Positions 11,998 to 42,219 of a DNA stretch of 62,695 nt are shown here, piece by piece. The first letter of the stretch is position 1, and every line of letters begins with the position of its first letter. This stretch comes from Cyclobacteriaceae bacterium. Its GTDB lineage: Bacteria; Bacteroidota; Bacteroidia; Cytophagales; Cyclobacteriaceae. The notes beneath the pieces are model-generated. The model ran no database searches and was not told where the DNA came from. It worked only from the letters and a program-made list of their open reading frames with translations. The translations under genes were made by a program, and so were the position numbers. Location: positions 277,784 to 340,478 of the forward strand of contig JAKLJG010000002.1 of NCBI GenBank assembly GCA_023151255.1, given 5' to 3'.

Positions 11998-12072
11998 GCC
12001 CCTGTAGTTAAATGGATATAACGAGAGCCTCCGGAGCTCTAGGTGCAGGTTCGATTCCTGCCGGGGGTACCA
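11998..12072 (+). tRNA. tRNA-Arg (anticodon CCG), CCA encoded
   Basis: A full cloverleaf can be drawn: acceptor GCCCCTG with CGGGGGT, anticodon stem AGAGC with GCTCT around the loop CTCCGGA (anticodon CCG, reads CGG), and T-arm GCAGG-TTCGATT-CCTGC. The 3' CCA is encoded at 12070-12072. A promoter precedes it and a terminator follows directly. Confidence 0.93.
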
Positions 12073-18661: not shown

Positions 18662-21064
18662 TTAATCAGCCGGATTTAATACAAGCCGGTTTTTTGATTG
18701 GGATATGATTTCTTCGCGGTTCATCATCATCTTCCGGGTTTTGCCGGTGGCAAACATTTCGGCCTGGTCGCTGTAATGCGGGCTCATTACGTTACCGCTT
18801 TGGCCGGTTGGTGAAATGGTAACTCCGTTTTCAATATCTCCAAAATCGGTAACCTTCCGTAAAGCAGGTCCGCCATTAACATTAAAGTAGCCTGAGTTTT
18901 CAAGCTCGTAATGCAAATTGTTGATTACTTCGCTGCCGCCATCAACCACAAAGGGCCCGACATTAAAAAACTTATCCAGCGGCTTTACGGCTCCAAGTGC
19001 GTGGGCGTGGGCGAGGGTGTGGATCTTACCCCACGTCCATGATTCGGGTTTTTTACCGCAGGTCTTTTTTAGCAAATCGATTGCTTTTATTGCGGCCCGT
19101 TCAACAATTTCTTCCCGGCTTTCGGTTTTTTCTTTGGTCGTTACATCGTCCCACCAGGGATTTGAAACTGAGGCAATAAACTGGTGATAGGAGTTTTTCG
19201 GAACAGAGGTTTTAAGCAACGAAGCAAGTGCGGTTGGGCCCAGCTCATCCAGCATGGCACCATGTATAATCTGGTCGAGGAGGTTATTGTAGATGGCAGG
19301 CGCAATCTTATCAGCCCCGTGTGAGCCGTCCCATTGATTTAATTCGTTAATCAGCGTGTTAAATTCCGGATTGTTTACCGTTGAAAGCACGGAGGCAATT
19401 TCTTTAGCCACTTCAGCATGCATGGAGGAGGTAACATCCAGTTGCATGGCGCTGAGTTGTTCCGGTGAAAACTTTTTATCTCCGCTCAATAATTCAACAA
19501 TACGGCCGGCTCTGCCTTTAGGATAATAGTATCCGGGGTATAGCACACCATCAACGGCCTCGGGCTGGTTGTTGGCCGAGTACACAAATCCCCAGGGAGG
19601 ATTAACGGCCTGCGGATTTTTTGAGAAATCATAGAAGCCGGTGTATTCATCCTGGCCGCTTTCGCCATTCAAAAAAAGTTTGCTCACCACGTGGTTTGGT
19701 CTAATCGGAAGTTTGGCGGCCGCCCACCATGCAATGTTTTTATCGGTATCGGCATACATTACGTTGAGGCCGGGGGCCGAGAAGCGCGATACAGCATCAC
19801 GGGCTTCTTCAAATGTGGCGGCATGATTCAGTTTCCAGGCGGCCTGAAGCGCGTGATTATCAATTTGCAACAGAAGCCACGAGAGTGCGATCGGTTCGCC
19901 CTCTTCGGGTGTATTTTCCACAATGCCGTTAATGATCGGTCCGTGACGGCTTTTCCTCACTTCAAATACAACATCAATTGCACCTTTTACCTTGATTATT
20001 TCATCGCGTACTTCCAGGTTCTCCCAGGCACCCGCAAACATCACCTGGTTTTTATTTTCAGGGTTTGATTTTTCGCGGAAGAAATCCACATCGTCATTTT
20101 CAAACATGGTCAGTCCGAATCCGCAAAAGCGGTTGTTGCCAAGCAGGCCTACCGGTATGCCGGCCAGATGATGGCCATAAAAACTGAAGCCCGGATACTC
20201 CAGGTGTGCTTCGTACCATACGGCCGGCTGCGAAAAGCCAATGTGTGTATCGTTGGCCAGAATTGGATACCCGCTGGCTGACTTTTCGGCCGACACGACC
20301 CAGCTGTTGCTCCCCTGCCAAAGGGGTACAGGTATTTTATCAATGGCCTGAAGGATGGATGCGATCAGCTTATCACTTGAATTAGTTTGTGCTGCTCCGT
20401 TATAATTTTTGATCTGCACGGCATCGGGTGGCGTTTGAACCGCCAGCATGTTCAGGTGCTTTTCACCCCATTCGGTTCTTATTTTTTCGAGCACCGGGTC
20501 GGCATGAAACCCTTCGGCAAAACCAAACGACATAAAACCGACCGCCAGGTAGATATCTTCGGGTGTGAACTCCGTTTTCGGAATATCCATAATGGTGAAT
20601 TCGATGGGCGTTTTTCCGGTATTGATGTATTGATTGATACCGCGCTGATATGCGTATGCGGCCCGCTGGTAATCGGCTGTATCGGCACTCAGAAATTTTG
20701 CCGCGTGTTCTTTGGCAAAATGGTTAAGGCCCAGTGTTCGGAAAAATTTATCCACTGGCAAAAGGTCTTCACCAAGAATTTCAGCCAGCCTTCCGGCTGC
20801 AGCACGCCTGAGCATTTCCATCTGGAACAGCCGGTCTTGTGCGTGTACATAACCCAGGGCATAGTAGGCGTCTTCCATGGTTTGCGCATAGATGTGCGGC
20901 ACACCGTAGGCATCAAACAAAACCTCAACAGGTTGCTGCAATCCAGGCAAGTTTCGTTCGCCCGACAGTTGCGGTTTAAGGCTTTGCAGGTAAACAAACA
21001 ACGCGATGGCGAGCAGAACAATACATGCCAACAGGCCCAGGAAAATTCGCTTAACTAGTTTCAT
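18662..21064 (-). CDS. Penicillin acylase family protein (Ntn hydrolase)
   Basis: Starting at ATG 21062-21064, the product has an N-terminal signal anchor (about residues 5-28) and the hallmarks of the penicillin/acyl-homoserine-lactone acylase family: VEVLFDAYGVPHIYAQ, the DAYYALGYVHAQDRLFQMEMLRR box, and the self-processing site before the nucleophile Ser in WQGSNSWVVS (about residue 250). Oxyanion and catalytic Asn segments follow (ILANDTHIGF and, late, ELENSGYFNVNGGPAL). Members are made as a precursor and cleaved to a two-chain periplasmic amidase. The natural substrate, such as N-acyl amino acids or AHLs, is not decided by the sequence. It lies 26 bp after the channel-like gene and may be co-transcribed with it. 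Confidence 0.9.
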   Translation of the reverse strand: MKLVKRIFLGLLACIVLLAIALFVYLQSLKPQLSGERNLPGLQQPVEVLFDAYGVPHIYAQTMEDAYYALGYVHAQDRLFQMEMLRRAAAGRLAEILGEDLLPVDKFFRTLGLNHFAKEHAAKFLSADTADYQRAAYAYQRGINQYINTGKTPIEFTIMDIPKTEFTPEDIYLAVGFMSFGFAEGFHADPVLEKIRTEWGEKHLNMLAVQTPPDAVQIKNYNGAAQTNSSDKLIASILQAIDKIPVPLWQGSNSWVVSAEKSASGYPILANDTHIGFSQPAVWYEAHLEYPGFSFYGHHLAGIPVGLLGNNRFCGFGLTMFENDDVDFFREKSNPENKNQVMFAGAWENLEVRDEIIKVKGAIDVVFEVRKSRHGPIINGIVENTPEEGEPIALSWLLLQIDNHALQAAWKLNHAATFEEARDAVSRFSAPGLNVMYADTDKNIAWWAAAKLPIRPNHVVSKLFLNGESGQDEYTGFYDFSKNPQAVNPPWGFVYSANNQPEAVDGVLYPGYYYPKGRAGRIVELLSGDKKFSPEQLSAMQLDVTSSMHAEVAKEIASVLSTVNNPEFNTLINELNQWDGSHGADKIAPAIYNNLLDQIIHGAMLDELGPTALASLLKTSVPKNSYHQFIASVSNPWWDDVTTKEKTESREEIVERAAIKAIDLLKKTCGKKPESWTWGKIHTLAHAHALGAVKPLDKFFNVGPFVVDGGSEVINNLHYELENSGYFNVNGGPALRKVTDFGDIENGVTISPTGQSGNVMSPHYSDQAEMFATGKTRKMMMNREEIISQSKNRLVLNPAD

Positions 21065-32971: not shown

Positions 32972-33359
32972 GGGGCCGACCGGTTTTGACAGGCTGTGTG
33001 AAGCCGGATGCAGCATGCAGGCTCATGGGGTGAGAGCCTTAACAGATAACTCCAAACCATACGTGGCGAGAATACTTACGCCATGGCTGCTTAATCTGAC
33101 GGTACGTTAGGTTAGCTTATGGCGCGTCAGACGCGCCAGGCCATCATCGCTCAGCGCTTTTGTTTTGCAGGTGCTGGTATAGCGGTGTCGTTCAGCAAAA
33201 CCGCTCCGTGCGATGTCGCTAAGCACGGCTAAGACAAGCGGCTACGGAGTAGCTCAGGTGGTTGCCTGCCTTGCCACTCCCGACAAGTAAAGGTAACTAA
33301 GCATGTAGAACGTTCGGGGTCATCTTCTCTGGACCAGGGTTCGATTCCCTGCGGCTCCA
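32972..33359 (+). ncRNA. ssrA: Transfer-messenger RNA (tmRNA)
   Basis: The 5' end GGGGCCG pairs with CGGCTCC at the 3' end to form the alanyl acceptor stem, and the T-arm CAGGG-TTCGATT-CCCTG is intact near the 3' end. The conserved region AACTCCAAACCATACGTGGC precedes the tag reading frame at 33065-33094 (GGC GAG AAT ACT TAC GCC ATG GCT GCT TAA), which encodes GENTYAMAA. The 3' CCA is not encoded. A T-tract follows immediately. tmRNA rescues stalled ribosomes and marks the nascent chain for proteolysis. Its length (388 nt) is normal. Confidence 0.95.
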
Positions 33360-33364
33360 CTTTT

Positions 33365-36129: not shown

Positions 36130-36687
36130 ATGAACTACATTAAGTTATTATTTGTGGTACTATCGGTTTCTGTTCAGGCACAGGTTGTGGCTGATTTCAG
36201 TTTGCCTAATGCAGTTGATGGTAAAACGGTTAACCTACGGGATTACCACCAATATGCCGGGGTTGTAGTAATTTTCGTAAGTTACGACTGCCCGTTCGAC
36301 AAGTACTATTTGGATCGGATTTTGAAAATTGCCGACACCTATAAAACGACTTTTCCGGTGTTGCTTATCAATGCAAATTCGGATGAAGTAGAGTCCGGAG
36401 CGGTGCTTAAAAATTACCTGGTTCAACAACAGGTAACTATACCGTACCTGCTGGATAAACAACAAATTGAACTGCGAACATTTAATGCACACAAAACCCC
36501 CGAGTGTTTTGTATTGAAAAATACCGGGCAAAAGTTTACAGTAGTGTACCGCGGGGCTATAGACGACAGTCCCCAGTCGGCCGCTGATGTGCGGGAAGCG
36601 TACCTTACCGATGCCATTGAAAAGGTACTGGCGGGGCAACGTATTGAAGTTGCCGAACACCGCCCACCCGGCTGCAGCATCCGGTAG
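36130..36687 (+). CDS. Exported redoxin (thioredoxin-fold) with a single Cys at the active site
   Basis: The 185-residue protein has a signal peptide (about 1-18) and a thioredoxin fold of the AhpC/TSA/TlpA type: FSLPNAVDGKTVNLRDYH, then VVIFVSYDCPFDKYYLDRIL, the cis-Pro region AHKTPECFVLKN and the final GRAID-like RGAIDDSPQ. In relatives the active site reads CNxC; here the first Cys is Ser (SYDC), leaving one Cys, with a further Cys in TPECF and one in the C-terminal PPGCSIR. It may be a one-Cys peroxidase or a thiol sensor rather than a disulfide reductase (inference). It starts 3 bp after the PPTase stop. Confidence 0.8.
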   Translation: MNYIKLLFVVLSVSVQAQVVADFSLPNAVDGKTVNLRDYHQYAGVVVIFVSYDCPFDKYYLDRILKIADTYKTTFPVLLINANSDEVESGAVLKNYLVQQQVTIPYLLDKQQIELRTFNAHKTPECFVLKNTGQKFTVVYRGAIDDSPQSAADVREAYLTDAIEKVLAGQRIEVAEHRPPGCSIR

Positions 36688-36690
36688 TGG

Positions 36691-37107
36691 TTAGTTTTCT
36701 TTAGCTTTTTGGATAGCCTCCAGCATCTGCTGCTTTACTTTGGTTACCCGCTCTTTTTCCGATTCGAGGTACTCGCGCAGGTCTTCACCGGTGTATTCTT
36801 CCGGCCGGAAATCGTTCATCCATTGCATCATGGCCTTTCCGGCCGAATCCAGTTGGAGGATTTTCTGCTCCAGTTCTTTTTTCTTTTCAGGAACAAGGCC
36901 GGCACTTTTTTCAACTGTTTCTTTCAGTTCGCGCTTTAGCTTCATGATGTCGTCCATGCGGGGCATTACTTCATCATGAATATCCATAACCTGGTTATAG
37001 AGTACCTTGTTTGGGTCGTCTGTAACCGGCTCGCTGGCCTGTTTATCTTTGTTTTTACCACAGGAAACAAGCCCAATAATCAGCAGGAGTGCAAACGTTT
37101 TTTTCAT
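36691..37107 (-). CDS. Coiled-coil lipoprotein
   Basis: The 138-residue product has a lipobox (VSCGK, Cys16) and a mature part made almost entirely of charged heptads (for example DIMKLKRELKETVEKSAGLVPEKKKELEQ, interrupted here at the turn). Similar Bacteroidota lipoproteins are often named after viral A-type inclusion proteins, without functional meaning. It is probably periplasmic, anchored in the inner leaflet of the outer membrane. It converges on the redoxin gene, with 3 bp between the stops, and diverges from the attenuated aromatic operon. Confidence 0.75.
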   Translation of the reverse strand: MKKTFALLLIIGLVSCGKNKDKQASEPVTDDPNKVLYNQVMDIHDEVMPRMDDIMKLKRELKETVEKSAGLVPEKKKELEQKILQLDSAGKAMMQWMNDFRPEEYTGEDLREYLESEKERVTKVKQQMLEAIQKAKEN

Positions 37108-37256
37108 AGTTGTTGAACGTATTCAGGCATTAAAGGTAGCTTGATGGGAGCACCGAATCAAATCGCCTAACGGGCATTTGGCTGAAAAAAAGTTTTATTC
37201 AACCATTGCACGGCAAAACAAATTCATCTTTATTAGAGCATTATTTGAATAGAAGT

Positions 37257-37340
37257 ATGTTCAACAACACGTGGTTTTATTTTTATTATTTCTTTTTTCA
37301 GCCCTTTACCGGGATTGAGCGAAGAGTAATTTGTTGTTGA
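37257..37340 (+). CDS. Phe/Tyr leader peptide of the pheA operon
   Basis: ATG 37257 opens a 27-codon frame ending at TGA 37338-37340. Residues 6-14 are WFYFYYFFF, nine aromatic codons in a row, and Phe17 follows; in all there are seven Phe, three Tyr and one Trp. This density is the hallmark of an attenuation leader such as pheL. It precedes an intrinsic terminator at 37365-37399 and the pheA-tyrA operon. Starvation for charged tRNA-Phe or tRNA-Tyr should stall ribosomes on this run. The 3' half (QPFTGIERRVICC) carries the antiterminator sequence. Function is inferred from arrangement, not shown. Confidence 0.85.
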   Translation: MFNNTWFYFYYFFFQPFTGIERRVICC

Positions 37341-37374
37341 CAAAACGATAAAAACAAAGCGCAGAAAGTCCCGG
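37309..37374 (+). promoter_or_regulatory. Antiterminator pairing of the aromatic attenuator
   Basis: CCGGGATT (37309-37316, within the leader codons) can pair with AGTCCCGG (37367-37374), which is most of the 5' arm of the terminator. Eight pairs form, one a G-T wobble, with three further A-T pairs beyond one mismatch (37305-37307 with the loop As). The two structures exclude each other. Confidence 0.75.
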
Positions 37375-37399
37375 AAAACCTCCGGGACTTTTTGTTTTT
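37365..37399 (+). terminator. Attenuator terminator upstream of pheA
   Basis: AAAGTCCCGG (37365-37374) and CCGGGACTTT (37382-37391) are perfectly complementary across a 7-nt loop, followed by TTGTTTTT. It lies 25 nt after the leader stop codon and about 55 nt before pheA, the position expected for attenuation. Confidence 0.9.
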
Positions 37400-37400
37400 A

Positions 37401-37442
37401 AACACCCCCTCCTGCCTCCTCCTTAAAGGGAGGTTAGGTGGT
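37401..37442 (+). repeat. Candidate dispersed intergenic repeat with CCTCC/GGAGG hairpin
   Basis: Between the attenuator terminator and pheA lies a C/T-rich then G-rich stretch where CCTCC (37418-37422) pairs with GGAGG (37429-37433). The bases resemble a common C-rich/G-rich palindromic intergenic element of Bacteroidota. No second copy was found in this window. Confidence 0.4.
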
Positions 37443-37453
37443 TAAATGAAGAA

Positions 37454-38299
37454 GTGATGGTCAAAAGAAAGAAGATACGGGTTGCAATCCAGGGAATAGC
37501 CACCAGTTTTCATGAAGTGGCTGCGAAGGCCTATTTCGGAAATGCCATTGAAACGGTGGAGTGCCTTACGTTTCATGAATTATGCAAAGTGCTAAGTCAG
37601 GGAAAAGTTGATTATGCGGTAATGGCCATCGAAAATTCCATTGCCGGCAGCATTTTACCAAACTACTTCCTGCTGCAGCAGCATCACTTCAGCATTGTTG
37701 GCGAACTGTACCTGCCCATCCACCTGCACCTGATGGCTTTGCCCGGAGTGAAAATGGATGAAATTGAAGTTATTGAATCACACCCGATGGCCATCCGCCA
37801 ATGCTCGGAGTTTTTGCAAAACCTGAACGGTGTTGACATCCGCGAAAGCGATGACACCGCCTTTTCGGCCCGAAGGGTAAAAGAAAAAAAGTTGAGGAAC
37901 ACGGCTGCTATTGCCAATGAACAGGCTGCCAAAAAATTCGGGTTGCAGATTCTTGAGAAACGTATCGAAACACATAAAAAGAATTTCACACGGTTTCTGA
38001 TGCTCACCAGGCGCATGAATGGCAAGGCTGAAAGCAACAAGGCTTCGCTGTGCTTTGAAGTAGCCAACGAGGTAGGCAGCCTGGCTGATGCGCTACTGGT
38101 ATTTAAATCGCACCGGATTAACCTCACCAAAATCCAGTCGATACCCATTATCGGTAAGCCAAGCGAATACTCCATTCATGTAGATGTGGAGTGGGCCAGG
38201 CGTAAGCAGTATGATGACGCCATGAAGGAAGTAATGCGGCAGGTGAAAAACCTGAACATTCTGGGTGAGTACAAAAAAGCAAAAATTGAATACAACTGA
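37454..38299 (+). CDS. pheA: Prephenate dehydratase
   Basis: PheA makes phenylpyruvate from prephenate. The start is GTG 37454 or ATG 37457. The protein begins with VAIQGIATSFHEVAAKAYFG and carries the substrate motif AIENSIAGSILPNYFLL (PDT catalytic domain) and the catalytic TRF in KKNFTRFLML. A C-terminal ACT domain (GSLADALLVFKSHRINLTKIQSIPI) should bind Phe for feedback inhibition; the usual ESRP is IQSIP here. There is no chorismate mutase domain, so that activity comes from the DAHPS fusion later in the operon. It is the first gene of pheA-aminotransferase-tyrA-DAHPS/CM and is preceded by the attenuator. Confidence 0.93.
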   Translation: MMVKRKKIRVAIQGIATSFHEVAAKAYFGNAIETVECLTFHELCKVLSQGKVDYAVMAIENSIAGSILPNYFLLQQHHFSIVGELYLPIHLHLMALPGVKMDEIEVIESHPMAIRQCSEFLQNLNGVDIRESDDTAFSARRVKEKKLRNTAAIANEQAAKKFGLQILEKRIETHKKNFTRFLMLTRRMNGKAESNKASLCFEVANEVGSLADALLVFKSHRINLTKIQSIPIIGKPSEYSIHVDVEWARRKQYDDAMKEVMRQVKNLNILGEYKKAKIEYN

Positions 38300-38300
38300 T

Positions 38301-39491
38301 ATGATCATAGAGCCATCAAAACGGGTTGAAGGTGTTGAAGAATATTACTTCAGCAGGAAGCTTGCCGAAGTACGTAAACTCGATACGCCTGAGTACCCGG
38401 TAATTAATTTAGGTATTGGCAGCCCGGATTTACCACCAGCGCCAGCCGTGATCGAAACGCTGATGGTTTCGGCCATGCAGGCGGGTCATCATGGTTACCA
38501 GAGTTACCGCGGAGTGGCTGCACTGCGCAACGCCATAGCTTCTTTTTCCGAACGTGTTTATGGCACTGTACTCAATGCCGAAACTATGATCCTTCCGCTG
38601 ATGGGCTCGAAGGAAGGCATCATGCACATCAGCATGGCTTTTTTAAATGAGGGCGATGAGGTACTGGTGCCCGACCCGGGATATCCTACTTACGCAGCTG
38701 CGGCCCGGCTTGCCGGTGCAACGGTTCGTACCTATGACCTTTCGGAAGAAAATGACTGGCGGGTTGATATTCAATCGCTGCGAAAGCAGGATCTGTCCAA
38801 CGTAAAAATTATGTGGCTCAATTCTCCGCACATGCCAACCGGGGCGACAGCCTCGGTTAACGAATTGAAAGAACTGGTAACGTTGGCACGTGAACATCAG
38901 TTTTTATTGGTGAACGATAATCCGTACAGTCTTATTCTAAACGACACACCCATCAGCCTCCTTTCTGTTGATGGCGCCCTGGAGGTTGCCCTCGAACTTA
39001 ACTCGCTCAGCAAATCGCACAACATGGCAGGCTGGCGCGTGGGTTGGGTGGCCGGCCGCAAAGAATACATTGATGCTATTCTCCGGTTTAAAAGCAACAT
39101 GGACTCCGGAATGTTCCTTGCCGTTCAGCATGCTGCTGCCGAAGCCTTGCGATCAGCAGGTGAATGGACGAAGTCGCTCAACACCATTTACAGAAAACGA
39201 AGACAAGTTGTTTATGAGCTGTTGAACGAGCTTCGGTGCACATACACTTTAACCCAGGCCGGATTATTTGTTTGGGCCAAAGCTCCTGACGATGTGCCGG
39301 CTGTTGAGCAATGGCTGGATGAAATCCTGTATGAAGCACATGTGTTTATTACACCCGGTTTTGTGTTTGGCAAAAATGGCGGCCGCTATATCCGAGTTTC
39401 TTTGTGCAACCCGGAAGAACAGATTCAGGAAGCTGTAAAACGGATCAGTGCAATGAAAATAGTAAAGCAAAAACAAGTTAGTGCAGCATGA
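38301..39491 (+). CDS. PLP-dependent class I/II aminotransferase, probably aromatic
   Basis: The start ATG 38301, two bases after the pheA stop, is favoured over an in-frame upstream ATG at 38265. The protein has the family signatures NLGIGSPDLPP, PLMGSKEGIMHISMAFL, VPDPGYPTYAAAARL, NSPHMPTGA, VNDNPYSLI and the PLP-binding Lys in NSLSKSHNMAGWRVGW. Being between pheA and tyrA, it should transaminate phenylpyruvate and hydroxyphenylpyruvate to Phe and Tyr. Similar proteins are LL-diaminopimelate aminotransferases, so substrate is judged by context. It overlaps tyrA by 4 nt. Confidence 0.9.
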   Translation: MIIEPSKRVEGVEEYYFSRKLAEVRKLDTPEYPVINLGIGSPDLPPAPAVIETLMVSAMQAGHHGYQSYRGVAALRNAIASFSERVYGTVLNAETMILPLMGSKEGIMHISMAFLNEGDEVLVPDPGYPTYAAAARLAGATVRTYDLSEENDWRVDIQSLRKQDLSNVKIMWLNSPHMPTGATASVNELKELVTLAREHQFLLVNDNPYSLILNDTPISLLSVDGALEVALELNSLSKSHNMAGWRVGWVAGRKEYIDAILRFKSNMDSGMFLAVQHAAAEALRSAGEWTKSLNTIYRKRRQVVYELLNELRCTYTLTQAGLFVWAKAPDDVPAVEQWLDEILYEAHVFITPGFVFGKNGGRYIRVSLCNPEEQIQEAVKRISAMKIVKQKQVSAA

Positions 39492-40378
39492 GAAGGAAAG
39501 CAACCATAGTTGGACTGGGCTTGATTGGCGGATCCATTGCTATCGATCTGCGCAAGTCAGGATTGTACGATGAAGTTACCGGAGTTGACCTGAATGCCGA
39601 TCATGCCCTACAGGCACTTCAATTGAAGCTGGTTGATAAAATCGAGCATGAAGGAAAAGCGTTATCAACTGCGGATTTGATAGTACTGGCCATACCCGTA
39701 AATGGCATCCATGCAATTTTACCGGCTGTTCTGGATATGATTAAGGACAACGCGGTAGTGGTTGATACCGGCTCAACCAAATCACTGATATGTAAATCGG
39801 TAAGCAATCACCCGAAACGAAATCGTTTTGTGGCAAGCCATCCGATTGCAGGAACAGAAAATTCGGGCCCGACTGCAGCCTTCGGGGGGCTGTTCAGAAG
39901 TAAAACGAATATCATCTGTGAAGCGGAGAAATCAGCAGACGAGGCCCTGCAAACGGCACTTCGTCTTTTTAATGAACTGGGCATGAAGACCATTTTTATG
40001 CAGCCCGATGAACACGACCGCCATGTGGCGTATGTGTCGCACCTCTCGCACGTGAGTTCTTTTTTACTCGGGCAAACCGTGCTGGATATCGAGAAGGATG
40101 AAAAGAACATTGCCGTACTGGCGGGCAGCGGGTTTGCCTCTACCGTGCGGTTGGCCAAAAGTTCGCCCGATATGTGGGCGCCCATCTTCGAACAGAATAT
40201 GGAGTACCTGAGCCAGGCCCTGCAGGAGTACATCATTCACCTGCAGCGGTTTCAATATCATTTACTGAAGCGCAACACCAATGAACTTCATCATACACTG
40301 CGCGAAGCCAACCATATCCGGAGAATACTGGATGGCATAGAGACAAAAACTTTATCAATAGAAAAACAAGACGTATGA
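39488..40378 (+). CDS. tyrA: Prephenate dehydrogenase
   Basis: TyrA oxidatively decarboxylates prephenate to 4-hydroxyphenylpyruvate. The 296-residue protein has the NAD-binding IVGLGLIGGSIAIDLRKSGL, the loop VVDTGSTKSLI, the catalytic His region SHPIAGTENSGP and the second His segment DRHVAYVSHLSHVSSFLL. There is no ACT domain, so any Tyr feedback must act elsewhere. The gene overlaps the aminotransferase and the DAHPS/CM genes by 4 nt on each side (ATGA), so the operon is translationally coupled. Confidence 0.93.
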   Translation: MRRKATIVGLGLIGGSIAIDLRKSGLYDEVTGVDLNADHALQALQLKLVDKIEHEGKALSTADLIVLAIPVNGIHAILPAVLDMIKDNAVVVDTGSTKSLICKSVSNHPKRNRFVASHPIAGTENSGPTAAFGGLFRSKTNIICEAEKSADEALQTALRLFNELGMKTIFMQPDEHDRHVAYVSHLSHVSSFLLGQTVLDIEKDEKNIAVLAGSGFASTVRLAKSSPDMWAPIFEQNMEYLSQALQEYIIHLQRFQYHLLKRNTNELHHTLREANHIRRILDGIETKTLSIEKQDV

Positions 40379-41487
40379 AAAAAGATATACAACCTGAATC
40401 GCTGACCAAGTGGTTTCCGAATACACATAACAGTAAACCCCTGCTCATCTCCGGCCCGTGCAGTGCCGAAACCGAATCACAAATGTTGAATACGGCCCGG
40501 CAGCTGGCGGCCACGGGTAAAGTAAATGTACTTCGTGCGGGCATCTGGAAGCCGCGCACCCGGCCCGGGCAGTTTGAAGGTGCCGGTACCGAAGGACTCG
40601 GCTGGCTGGTGCGTGCGAAGATTGAAACCGGGTTACCCGTAGCCACCGAAGTAGCTAATGCTCAGCACGTGGAGTTATGTTTGAAACACGGTGTGGATAT
40701 ACTGTGGGTAGGTGCAAGGACTACGGTAAACCCGTTTTCGGTACAGGAAATTGCCGATGCACTGCAAGGTGTAGATATACCCGTGTTGGTGAAAAACCCG
40801 GTCAACCCCGACATTGAGTTGTGGATAGGTGCGCTGGAACGACTGAACAAGGCTGGCATCACCAAACTGGCAGCCATCCACCGCGGATTTTCTTCATTTG
40901 AGAAAGGGCCCTTCCGCAATGCACCCATGTGGGATCTGGCCATCGATCTGAAAACGCGTGTACCCGAACTTGCCATTTTTTGCGACCCCAGCCACATCTG
41001 CGGAACGAGAGAACTCATTCCCTTCGTTGCGCAAAAAGCGCTCGACCTCGATATGGCCGGGCTGATGGTAGAAAGCCACATCCATCCCGATGCCGCGTGG
41101 AGCGATGCCAAACAGCAGGTAACACCGGCCGCGCTTGCCAAACTGATTGACGGATTAATTGTGCGTAAACCTTCGGTTGACAGCGGTTCTTTCAAAGACA
41201 CGCTGACGCAGTTGCGCGAACAGATCGATCAGTTGGATGACGAGATTATGCAGAAACTTTCCGCCCGGATGAAGATCTCGGAAAAGATTGGTGTGTATAA
41301 AAAAGAAAACAACGTAACCATTTTGCAGGTTAACCGGTGGGAGGAGATCATCCATACCCGCATTGCGCTGGGGCTGGCCATGGGACTGTCGGAAGATTTT
41401 ACCCGCGACATGCTGAAGCTGGTGCACCATGAATCCATACACGTGCAGGAGAAGGTGATGAACGCGGTGAATCAGCGGGTGGGATGA
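40375..41487 (+). CDS. Bifunctional DAHP synthase / chorismate mutase (CM domain C-terminal)
   Basis: Residues about 15-265 form a type I-beta DAHP synthase (SGPCSAETESQM, LRAGIWKPRTRPG, EVANAQHVELCL, GARTTVNPF, then CDPSHICGTRELI with the metal-binding His). Residues about 275-365 form an AroQ-type chorismate mutase (LREQIDQLDDEIMQKLSARMKISEKIG, divided here). A DAHPS with C-terminal CM is known from Porphyromonas, where prephenate inhibits the synthase through the CM domain. This one enzyme supplies entry and branch-point steps for Phe and Tyr. It is the last of the coupled operon genes, beginning with a 4-nt overlap with tyrA. Confidence 0.92.
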   Translation: MKKDIQPESLTKWFPNTHNSKPLLISGPCSAETESQMLNTARQLAATGKVNVLRAGIWKPRTRPGQFEGAGTEGLGWLVRAKIETGLPVATEVANAQHVELCLKHGVDILWVGARTTVNPFSVQEIADALQGVDIPVLVKNPVNPDIELWIGALERLNKAGITKLAAIHRGFSSFEKGPFRNAPMWDLAIDLKTRVPELAIFCDPSHICGTRELIPFVAQKALDLDMAGLMVESHIHPDAAWSDAKQQVTPAALAKLIDGLIVRKPSVDSGSFKDTLTQLREQIDQLDDEIMQKLSARMKISEKIGVYKKENNVTILQVNRWEEIIHTRIALGLAMGLSEDFTRDMLKLVHHESIHVQEKVMNAVNQRVG

Positions 41488-41508: not shown

Positions 41509-42219
41509 GTGTTCAAATTTTATCATTTTTGCGGTGTGAGGTTGCTTAGCTTTTTTATTGTATTGTTGACAGCATTTTCTCAGGAGCCCGATAAATCCTA
41601 TTTACTCGGCCGTTTCAACCCGGAAACTGATGCCCGCTTTGTAAAGCCGGCTGATGAGCACACGGCAGGGGCTGCCCGCAGCCAGTACTTGCGTAAAGAA
41701 ACCTATGAGGCGTTTGTAAAAATGGCTGAAGCTGCTGCAACGGATGGAGTTAGGCTCGTGATCATTTCAGCTACGCGGAATTTTGAAACGCAAAAAAGCA
41801 TCTGGGAACGCAAGTGGCAGGCCGAGGCTACCATTGCCAATGAAGCTGACAGGGCCAAAAAGATTTTACTGTACTCCTCCATGCCAGGCACCTCGCGCCA
41901 CCACTGGGGCACCGATATGGATCTGAATGATTTGAATAACGACTACTTTGAATCAGGTGAGGGATTGAAAATTTACCAATGGCTCACTGCCCACGCCCAT
42001 GAGTTTGGATTTTGCCAACCCTATACTTCAAAAGATAAAGGCCGTACCGGTTATGAAGAAGAAAAGTGGCACTGGTCATATACACCGTTATCCGTTCCGT
42101 TGCTGGAGGCGTATAAAAAAACAGTTTCGCTGAAAGACATCAGTGGTTTTAAGGGCAGCGAAACAGCCGTGCAACTGGATGTTATTAAAAATTATGTTGA
42201 CGGGGTGGCGTGTAAGTAG
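41509..42219 (+). CDS. M15 family D-alanyl-D-alanine carboxypeptidase (VanY-type)
   Basis: The 236-residue protein starts with GTG at 41509 or at 41536; both leave a hydrophobic signal (VRLLSFFIVLLTAFSQ). It carries the M15 zinc motifs TSRHHWGTDMDLND (His and Asp ligands) and EKWHWSYTPL (catalytic and zinc-binding EKWHW). These enzymes trim the terminal D-Ala from peptidoglycan stem peptides in the periplasm. It follows the aromatic operon after 21 bp but in function belongs with wall metabolism. A small hairpin (CAATTC-ctgt-GAATTG, 42225-42240) lies after the stop. Confidence 0.88.
   Translation: MFKFYHFCGVRLLSFFIVLLTAFSQEPDKSYLLGRFNPETDARFVKPADEHTAGAARSQYLRKETYEAFVKMAEAAATDGVRLVIISATRNFETQKSIWERKWQAEATIANEADRAKKILLYSSMPGTSRHHWGTDMDLNDLNNDYFESGEGLKIYQWLTAHAHEFGFCQPYTSKDKGRTGYEEEKWHWSYTPLSVPLLEAYKKTVSLKDISGFKGSETAVQLDVIKNYVDGVACK

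Follow-up and report, generated by a model that had tools for sequence, protein, structure and literature searches.

A putative phenylalanine/tyrosine transcription attenuator upstream of pheA in a Cyclobacteriaceae bacterium and its relatives in the Bacteroidota

Leader-peptide attenuation is, according to a passage of PMC4833913, best known from Proteobacteria and Actinobacteria, and the 2010 attenuation survey by Lopatovskaya and colleagues that is cited there may cover Bacteroidetes as well. Regarding this phylum, the part of the 2021 transcriptome study of Flavobacterium psychrophilum that deals with them (PMC9723704) describes structured 5' elements before pheA and hisG, without Rfam matches and conserved in other Flavobacteriaceae, and points to clues for leader-peptide attenuation before amino-acid operons. 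In the entry concerned, PMC2864571 lists Bacteroid-trp RNA (RF01692) as probably cis-regulatory in Bacteroidetes, and leader-like ORFs in Bacteroides 5' UTRs are mentioned in a passage of PMC7366714. Among the matches listed in our search of open-licence papers, none dealt with a pheA leader element in Cytophagales. The F. psychrophilum element resembles the one reported here in its phylum, in its gene and in being without an Rfam match; the relevant passages of PMC9723704 describe it without leader peptide, alternative helices or a distribution beyond Flavobacteriaceae. The putative pheA attenuator is well supported, and the Flavobacterium work partly anticipates it for a neighbouring family.

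The closest described mechanism is the one of enterobacterial pheL. When analyzed with the same script as the loci presented below, E. coli K-12 pheL displays seven Phe codons, a segment-2 duplex 7 nt past the run and a terminator before pheA. With enterobacterial pheL, the element described here shares a leader ORF with aromatic codons, an antiterminator segment (segment 2) a few nucleotides past the last aromatic codon, a terminator and then pheA. It departs from it in several respects: the seven Phe codons of pheL are replaced, in the locus under study, by a run of Phe plus Tyr with one Trp; the operon adds an aminotransferase, tyrA and a DAHP synthase fused to chorismate mutase (DAHPS/CM); and, whereas the stop codon of E. 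coli pheL precedes segment 2, segment 2 of the Bacteroidota leaders lies inside the ORF or meets its stop. The his and thr leader attenuators (RF00514 and RF00506) follow the same logic with other control codons.

The locus lies in a stretch of 62,695 nucleotides from a Cyclobacteriaceae bacterium, hereafter the window, whose numbering is used throughout; leader and operon are on its forward strand (+). Read directly from the sequence, the leader ORF, MFNNTWFYFYYFFFQPFTGIERRVICC plus stop (37257-37340), extends from an ATG at 37257 to a TGA at 37338-37340 over 27 sense codons, and the putative control codons W F Y F Y Y F F F, nine aromatic residues out of nine, occupy 37272-37298, as the original prediction had stated. 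The genes announced downstream are present too, in the form of a tight four-gene operon with a 1-nt gap or 4-nt overlaps: pheA, encoding prephenate dehydratase (37457-38299, with ATG at 37457 and a GTG at 37454 also open), a class I/II aminotransferase (38301-39491) beginning 1 nt past the pheA stop, tyrA, encoding prephenate dehydrogenase (39488-40378) and overlapping the aminotransferase stop by four nucleotides, and the DAHP synthase fused to chorismate mutase (40375-41487), which overlaps the tyrA stop by four nucleotides as well. All four genes serve Phe and Tyr synthesis and none is a Trp gene; as expected of an attenuator, the operon would thus make the amino acids that its leader is predicted to sense. 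Among relatives with a leader (L032-L094, L099), the aminotransferase directly follows pheA in 58 of 64 loci. On the same strand, an ORF for a VanY-type D-alanyl-D-alanine carboxypeptidase (41509-42219) begins 21 nt past DAHPS/CM and may be co-transcribed with the operon. We read the whole arrangement, with a probability of about 0.9, as a ribosome-mediated transcription attenuator of the pheL kind that would sense Phe and Tyr.

The aromatic run stands out from its surroundings. Considering ORFs of 8-60 codons with their own stop and an ATG, GTG or TTG start on both strands, the leader is the sole ORF of the window with at least seven aromatic codons in nine, two others reaching six; in 40 windows generated by an order-1 Markov model, 49 ORFs had six aromatic codons in nine, 2 had seven and none had eight or nine. 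A short ORF with a codon run for the end products of the operon, as an attenuator would be expected to possess, is in place. Across 64 loci, the last 27 nt of the runs (576 codons) comprise 274 Phe, 215 Tyr, 35 Arg, 22 Trp and 30 other codons, the level of these counts being biased since the runs were selected for aromatic content. At least two Phe and at least two Tyr codons are found in 63/64 leaders, versus a Trp codon in just 22/64, so that Phe plus Tyr is the better reading: of the all-aromatic sensing initially proposed, the Phe and Tyr part holds while the Trp part is weakly supported, and Phe and Tyr are likely the signals, with Trp optional. Given the pyrimidine-rich composition of the run, whose 5' part is able to form a helix with a purine-rich strand at many loci, one could regard the U-rich tract as a mere partner of that strand or as a protein-binding site, the Phe and Tyr codons being a by-product, all the more so as runs picked for aromatic content yield biased codon counts. 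We consider this highly improbable. Indeed, A is frequent at the second codon position (222/576) and scarce at the first (18); Phe or Tyr account for 489/576 codons of the reading frame, whereas 194 codons of the +1 frame are Phe, next to Thr, Ile and other residues, and Leu predominates in the +2 frame, which has 24 stops; and other biosynthetic genes have leaders with matching codons, a His run for hisG and a Thr/Ile run for aspartokinase-homoserine dehydrogenase.

Where an attenuator would require it, between the leader ORF and the first gene, a predicted intrinsic terminator is present. Supported by folding and comparative evidence, it pairs 37361-37375 with 37381-37395 through 15 base pairs, two of them G-U, and its 3' arm runs into a T-rich tract that extends to about 37399; the hairpin and T tract that had been predicted are therefore confirmed, the stem being larger than the perfect 10 bp proposed. 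Folding of the leader (z -6.3, equalled by 0/200 dinucleotide shuffles) is largely owed to this terminator. On an alignment of 60 rows (A1), from which the near-identical L048, L052, L089 and L092 were left out, covariation in the terminator is above shuffles on all five measures (reached by 0-1/500), with 39 double-change cells. The terminator at 37361-37395 is absent from the output of a generic terminator scan. Gene-size ORFs 5' of the leader lie at 36691-37107 (-) and 36130-36687 (+); since the nearest one on the same strand stops 569 nt short of the leader ATG, the terminator probably does not belong to a gene further upstream. A generic sigma-70 scan gave no usable promoter. The motif TANNTTTG, presumably the Bacteroidota promoter consensus, is found at most 70 nt from the leader ATG in 16/64 loci versus 87/2000 shuffled 70-mers, most often 25-28 nt 5' of the ATG; it is absent within 70 nt of the leader ATG of the window, for which we claim no promoter. 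A separate hairpin-capable stretch (CCTCCTTAAAGGGAGG...) occupies 37418-37441, between the terminator and the pheA start; its interpretation as a dispersed repeat was dropped because it is single-copy in the genome.

The 5' arm of the terminator has a second partner. The core of segment 2, CCGGGATT (37309-37316), supported by both pairing and conservation, pairs with AGTCCCGG (37367-37374) within this arm through eight base pairs, one of them G-U, in agreement with the eight-base pairing originally put forward for CCGGGATT. A mutually exclusive antiterminator using the terminator 5' arm, another hallmark of attenuators, can thus be predicted. For a set of 64 loci made of the window and 63 others (L079, whose leader lies beyond 330 nt, L104, L105 and L110 having been dropped), the duplex of segment 2 with the terminator 5' arm averages -14.6 kcal/mol versus -6.7 kcal/mol for mononucleotide-shuffled sequences, and 82/12800 shuffles are as good. 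In all 64 loci, the best partner of the terminator 5' arm sits close behind the aromatic run, with 12 nt from the run end to the GG of segment 2 in 45/64 loci and 10-15 nt in 63/64, the exception, L033, being anchored on a wrong GGGC site. Joint changes in the core comprise A-U to G-C (4 loci) and C-G to U-A (2 loci), and those at the helix end C-G to G-C (5 loci) or A-U (3 loci); the helix end pairs with its own locus in 56/64 cases versus 67% for swapped loci, and at offsets -4 to 1, the six inner positions of the core, pairing is still seen in 94-100% of swapped loci. In A1, segment 2 of the window is shifted by one column (305/475 cells); the register of L058 was then used, which treats the window and L032 as misfits, and per-locus anchoring is reported alongside. 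Core covariation measured on A1 is small, with 25 to 303/500 shuffles reaching the observed value depending on the measure, because the segment 2 core is nearly invariant. Past a small internal loop, per-locus anchoring reveals an outer antiterminator helix, formed in the window by GCG (37319-37321) and CGC (37360-37362), whose sequence varies while pairing is kept in many loci: GAGT/ACTC in many relatives, GCG/CGC in the window, and GATA/TATC, AGTAG/CTACT or TATGTAG/TTACATA elsewhere. Among the 64 loci, no outer helix was found in seven, and it is short or weak in some others.

A further helix may protect segment 2. The strand past segment 2 has a possible pairing partner in the codons immediately 5' of the run, in the window AACAACA (37263-37269) with TGTTGTT (37332-37338), a candidate absent from the original prediction and identified by duplex energy (-13.0 kcal/mol, z -1.8); the equivalent pairs are AACAACACA/TGTGTTGTT in one group of loci and GCGATTTT/AAAATCGC or CCGATTTT/AGAATCGG in another. 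Over the 64 loci, own duplexes average -13.2 kcal/mol versus -10.1 kcal/mol for swapped loci, with a mean z of -2.42; they are matched by 1645/12800 shuffles, and z is at least -0.7 in 14/64 loci. On A1, 78.8% of the cells are paired versus 71.9% after shuffling, in a structure taken from one row, L058, a choice that favours the protector. The percentage, the double-change cells and the score are reached by 0/500 shuffles, and the number of double-change pairs and of pair types by 500/500. RNAalifold run on A1 returned the terminator and a 3-bp hairpin, and no protector. Support for the protector is mixed, and it is best taken as a candidate helix that is probably present in most loci.

The frame and stems were then sought in relatives, as the original prediction had called for, and both recur. 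A scan of 80 GTDB pheA loci, in which a leader had to contain five or more F/Y/W among eight codons and to lie no further than 450 nt away, identified a comparable ORF in 64 (L032-L094, L099); candidates are weaker in L105 and L110, the ORF of L104 looks like a chance occurrence, L097 comes without upstream DNA, and in 12/80 there is no leader within 450 nt. Culturable species are among those with the leader, such as Chryseolinea serpens (L041) and Ohtaekwangia koreensis (L048). The segment just past the run pairs with the terminator 5' arm in 63 of the 64 leader loci, in addition to the window. Peptide ends differ between loci (GL, RD, ERESVC and others) and the F/Y run is kept. This variation is pertinent to another interpretation, according to which the short transcript acts as a small RNA or through the small protein that it encodes, in which case the terminator would simply mark its 3' end and pheA would be transcribed from a promoter of its own. 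The about 60 nt between terminator and pheA leave little room, yet some, for such a promoter, and a Sinorhizobium leader peptide is reported, in a passage of PMC7298713, to act in trans; yet a functional peptide would fit poorly with ends that vary around a constant run, the complementarity and spacing of segment 2 would be left unexplained, and 22/29 rearranged loci of the same family, presented below, place an aromatic leader before a longer cluster. We thus hold a small RNA or peptide to be quite improbable and retain the Phe/Tyr attenuator.

Two genome samples, leaning to better matches rather than random, were used to evaluate the distribution of adjacent leaders with at least 6/9 aromatic codons. 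The own-family sample consisted of 51 genomes (48 of the 86 with a pheA match, plus three from a wider search) and left out 38 matched genomes, nearly all of them about 30% identical; the wider sample took 74 of 255 genomes with a pheA match, some of which are shared with the own-family set. At this threshold, an adjacent leader is present in 11/11 close own-family loci, all of them, window included, with terminator and segment 2, and in 8/40 other own-family loci. Regarding other families, leaders occur in 2/2 (f2), 7/7 (f4), 6/6 (f5) and 5/5 (f8) loci; in f7, 26/26 loci have one, with a terminator found in 25 and segment 2 pairing of -8 or better in 20, and in f11 a leader is present in 2/2, a terminator being found in neither. 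Genomes placed only to the same phylum have a leader in 5/18 cases.

The own-family loci devoid of an adjacent leader proved informative. A search for F/Y-run patterns in eight genomes was unspecific, controls being about as frequent among the matches listed, and it flagged two runs 3.6-4 kb 5' of pheA; testing of far-upstream regions followed. About 5 kb of upstream sequence was read for 29 of the 32 own-family loci without adjacent leader (L012, L013 and L023 were left out), and in 22/29 (L239, L240, L242-L253, L255-L261, L263) an aromatic leader lies 3.5-4.8 kb 5' of pheA, where it heads a longer aromatic cluster. These leaders are of another sequence type (e.g., MLIAALTYFTFFYFYFRLEGRIGAAYCLVKK), with a terminator and a segment pairing with it, and their segment-2 duplex starts 12 nt past the run, compared to about 9 nt by the same measure in most near leaders. 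In L239, the genes between far leader and pheA are, according to Pfam, DAHPS/CM, 3-dehydroquinate synthase and EPSP synthase, and the other loci of this kind have similar ORF layouts. In the remaining 7/29 (L254, L262, L264-L268), there is no leader within about 5 kb, nor, for the genome of L254, in the 5 kb further upstream (L269). Nine such stretches from other families of the phylum (L270-L278) contain no leader, L276 having a six-of-nine ORF without terminator, and the antisense strands of 40 stretches gave 0 ORFs with eight of nine aromatic codons and a terminator. These data suggest that, as the aromatic cluster was rearranged, the putative control element retained its place at the front.

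Known RNA families were compared with the window. At Rfam gathering scores, the window yields a tmRNA (32972-33362, +, 117.3 bits) and a tRNA gene (11998-12069, +, 66.5 bits). The Phe_leader family (RF01859) matches the leader end to end with 40.9 bits (E 1.3e-5 for 351 nt), below its gathering cut-off of 55 bits, and it is listed at E up to 1 in 3/13 loci scanned; His_leader reaches 19.0 bits for a cut-off of 49. Neither the T-box covariance model nor Bacteroid-trp (RF01692), which we take to be a trp attenuator, is listed for the window at gathering score or for 37150-37500 at E up to 1. A ligand-binding riboswitch or a T-box would likewise account for alternative helices in front of a biosynthetic operon. 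We judge either extremely improbable: tmRNA and tRNA are the only gathering-score matches of the window, Phe_leader ranks first among the families matching the leader at E up to 1, with T-box not listed, and the control-codon ORF would be left unexplained.

A covariance model was built from A1 with the protector and the terminator, the window being part of the training set. It scores the window at 114.5 bits, and the next place in its own genome at 33.3 bits. Among 198 genomes of the class, its ten top-scoring places are all located directly before pheA, three in the close family and seven in other families; for a model trained on pheA leaders, this is expected for true relatives and not for chance matches. 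The next two places, in f4 genomes, precede an aspartokinase-homoserine dehydrogenase gene and correspond to the leader MIFNTSIITTIIITTG. Two of the far-upstream aromatic leaders are also found, with 53.8 and 49.6 bits (G206 and G082), and a place at 51.8 bits (G450, L318) has no recognisable gene beside it; below about 50 bits, places before pheA are mixed with others. Overall, 73/198 genomes have a place at E <= 0.01. In some leader-bearing genomes (f2; G118, G122 and G153 of f7), the model either points elsewhere or gives no place, and among 61 loci scanned directly it finds 36 at E < 0.01, by E-value alone.

From the observed ORF, helices, conservation and operon, we infer stalling, termination, read-through and a response to amino acids as follows. 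RNA polymerase would make a short leader whose ORF holds Phe and Tyr codons. A shortage of charged tRNA-Phe or tRNA-Tyr would stall the ribosome in the run and leave segment 2, about 12 nt downstream, free to take the terminator 5' arm, so that the polymerase would continue into all four genes of the operon, from pheA to DAHPS/CM. With an ample supply of charged tRNA, the ribosome would advance, segment 2 would be covered or re-closed, and the terminator would end the transcript. The least secure part of this scheme is how segment 2 stays off the arm in the fed state in the class with a long ORF, to which the window belongs. The stop codon lies -1 to 7 nt past segment 2 in 30/64 loci, 12-22 nt past it in 33 (including L033, whose stop abuts segment 2 and which is counted here through its wrong anchoring) and 83 nt past it in one. 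With a stop 13-22 nt past segment 2 in about half of the family loci, window included, a ribosome parked there would thus not mask segment 2.

A static model assuming a ribosome footprint of 15 nt upstream and 12 nt downstream of the A site was applied to both classes. In the 30 near-stop loci, the pairing of segment 2 with the newly made arm averages 0.97 with a stalled ribosome and 0.00 with a ribosome on the stop, a switch-like behavior that is partly due to the way in which the blocking was set up. For the 33 far-stop loci, the corresponding averages are 0.96 and 0.84, and for the window 0.97 when free, 0.97 when stalled and 0.96 on the stop, i.e., no switch. Without ribosome, this static model favours the antiterminator in both classes (means of 0.69 and 0.74), so that the protector is not sufficient to hold back segment 2; for an untranslated leader, it would hence predict read-through, and the classical scheme termination. 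In the fed state of the window, the ribosome may physically part the strands, a race between ribosome and polymerase may decide the outcome, or the protector, as the helix formed earliest, may open slowly. A broader proposal is that Bacteroidota hold a widespread aromatic attenuator with an architecture of its own, in which the leader ORF would cross segment 2, the element would be kept at the front of rearranged clusters with two sequence types within one family, and far-stop loci would be switched by ribosome-polymerase timing rather than by masking at the stop codon; taken as a whole, this is possible but doubtful.

Leaders of a comparable kind were encountered before other genes. In the own genome (L202, G000:C40), the leader MTNRKSINNHHHHHVNTMLRGRFMF, with five consecutive His codons followed by a terminator with 13-nt arms, lies ~320 nt upstream of a HisG match at 20711, and is likely a histidine attenuator before hisG. 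In two f4 genomes (L313 and L314), the leader MIFNTSIITTIIITTG(INQRG) and a terminator are located in about the first 110 nt, on the reverse strand, and the gene behind it in L313 is, according to Pfam, an aspartokinase-homoserine dehydrogenase; this is a putative Thr/Ile attenuator of the same build as the pheA leader. Coarse scans of the own genome gave no leader before three chorismate-binding-family genes, a TPP-enzyme gene and a homoserine dehydrogenase gene.

Finally, the pheA leader element could qualify as a new Rfam family. The loci assembled here provide a comparative anatomy for probable Phe/Tyr attenuation in Bacteroidota. In these bacteria, translation is started mostly without Shine-Dalgarno pairing, and the putative attenuator hence offers a test of transcription-translation coupling in this phylum.
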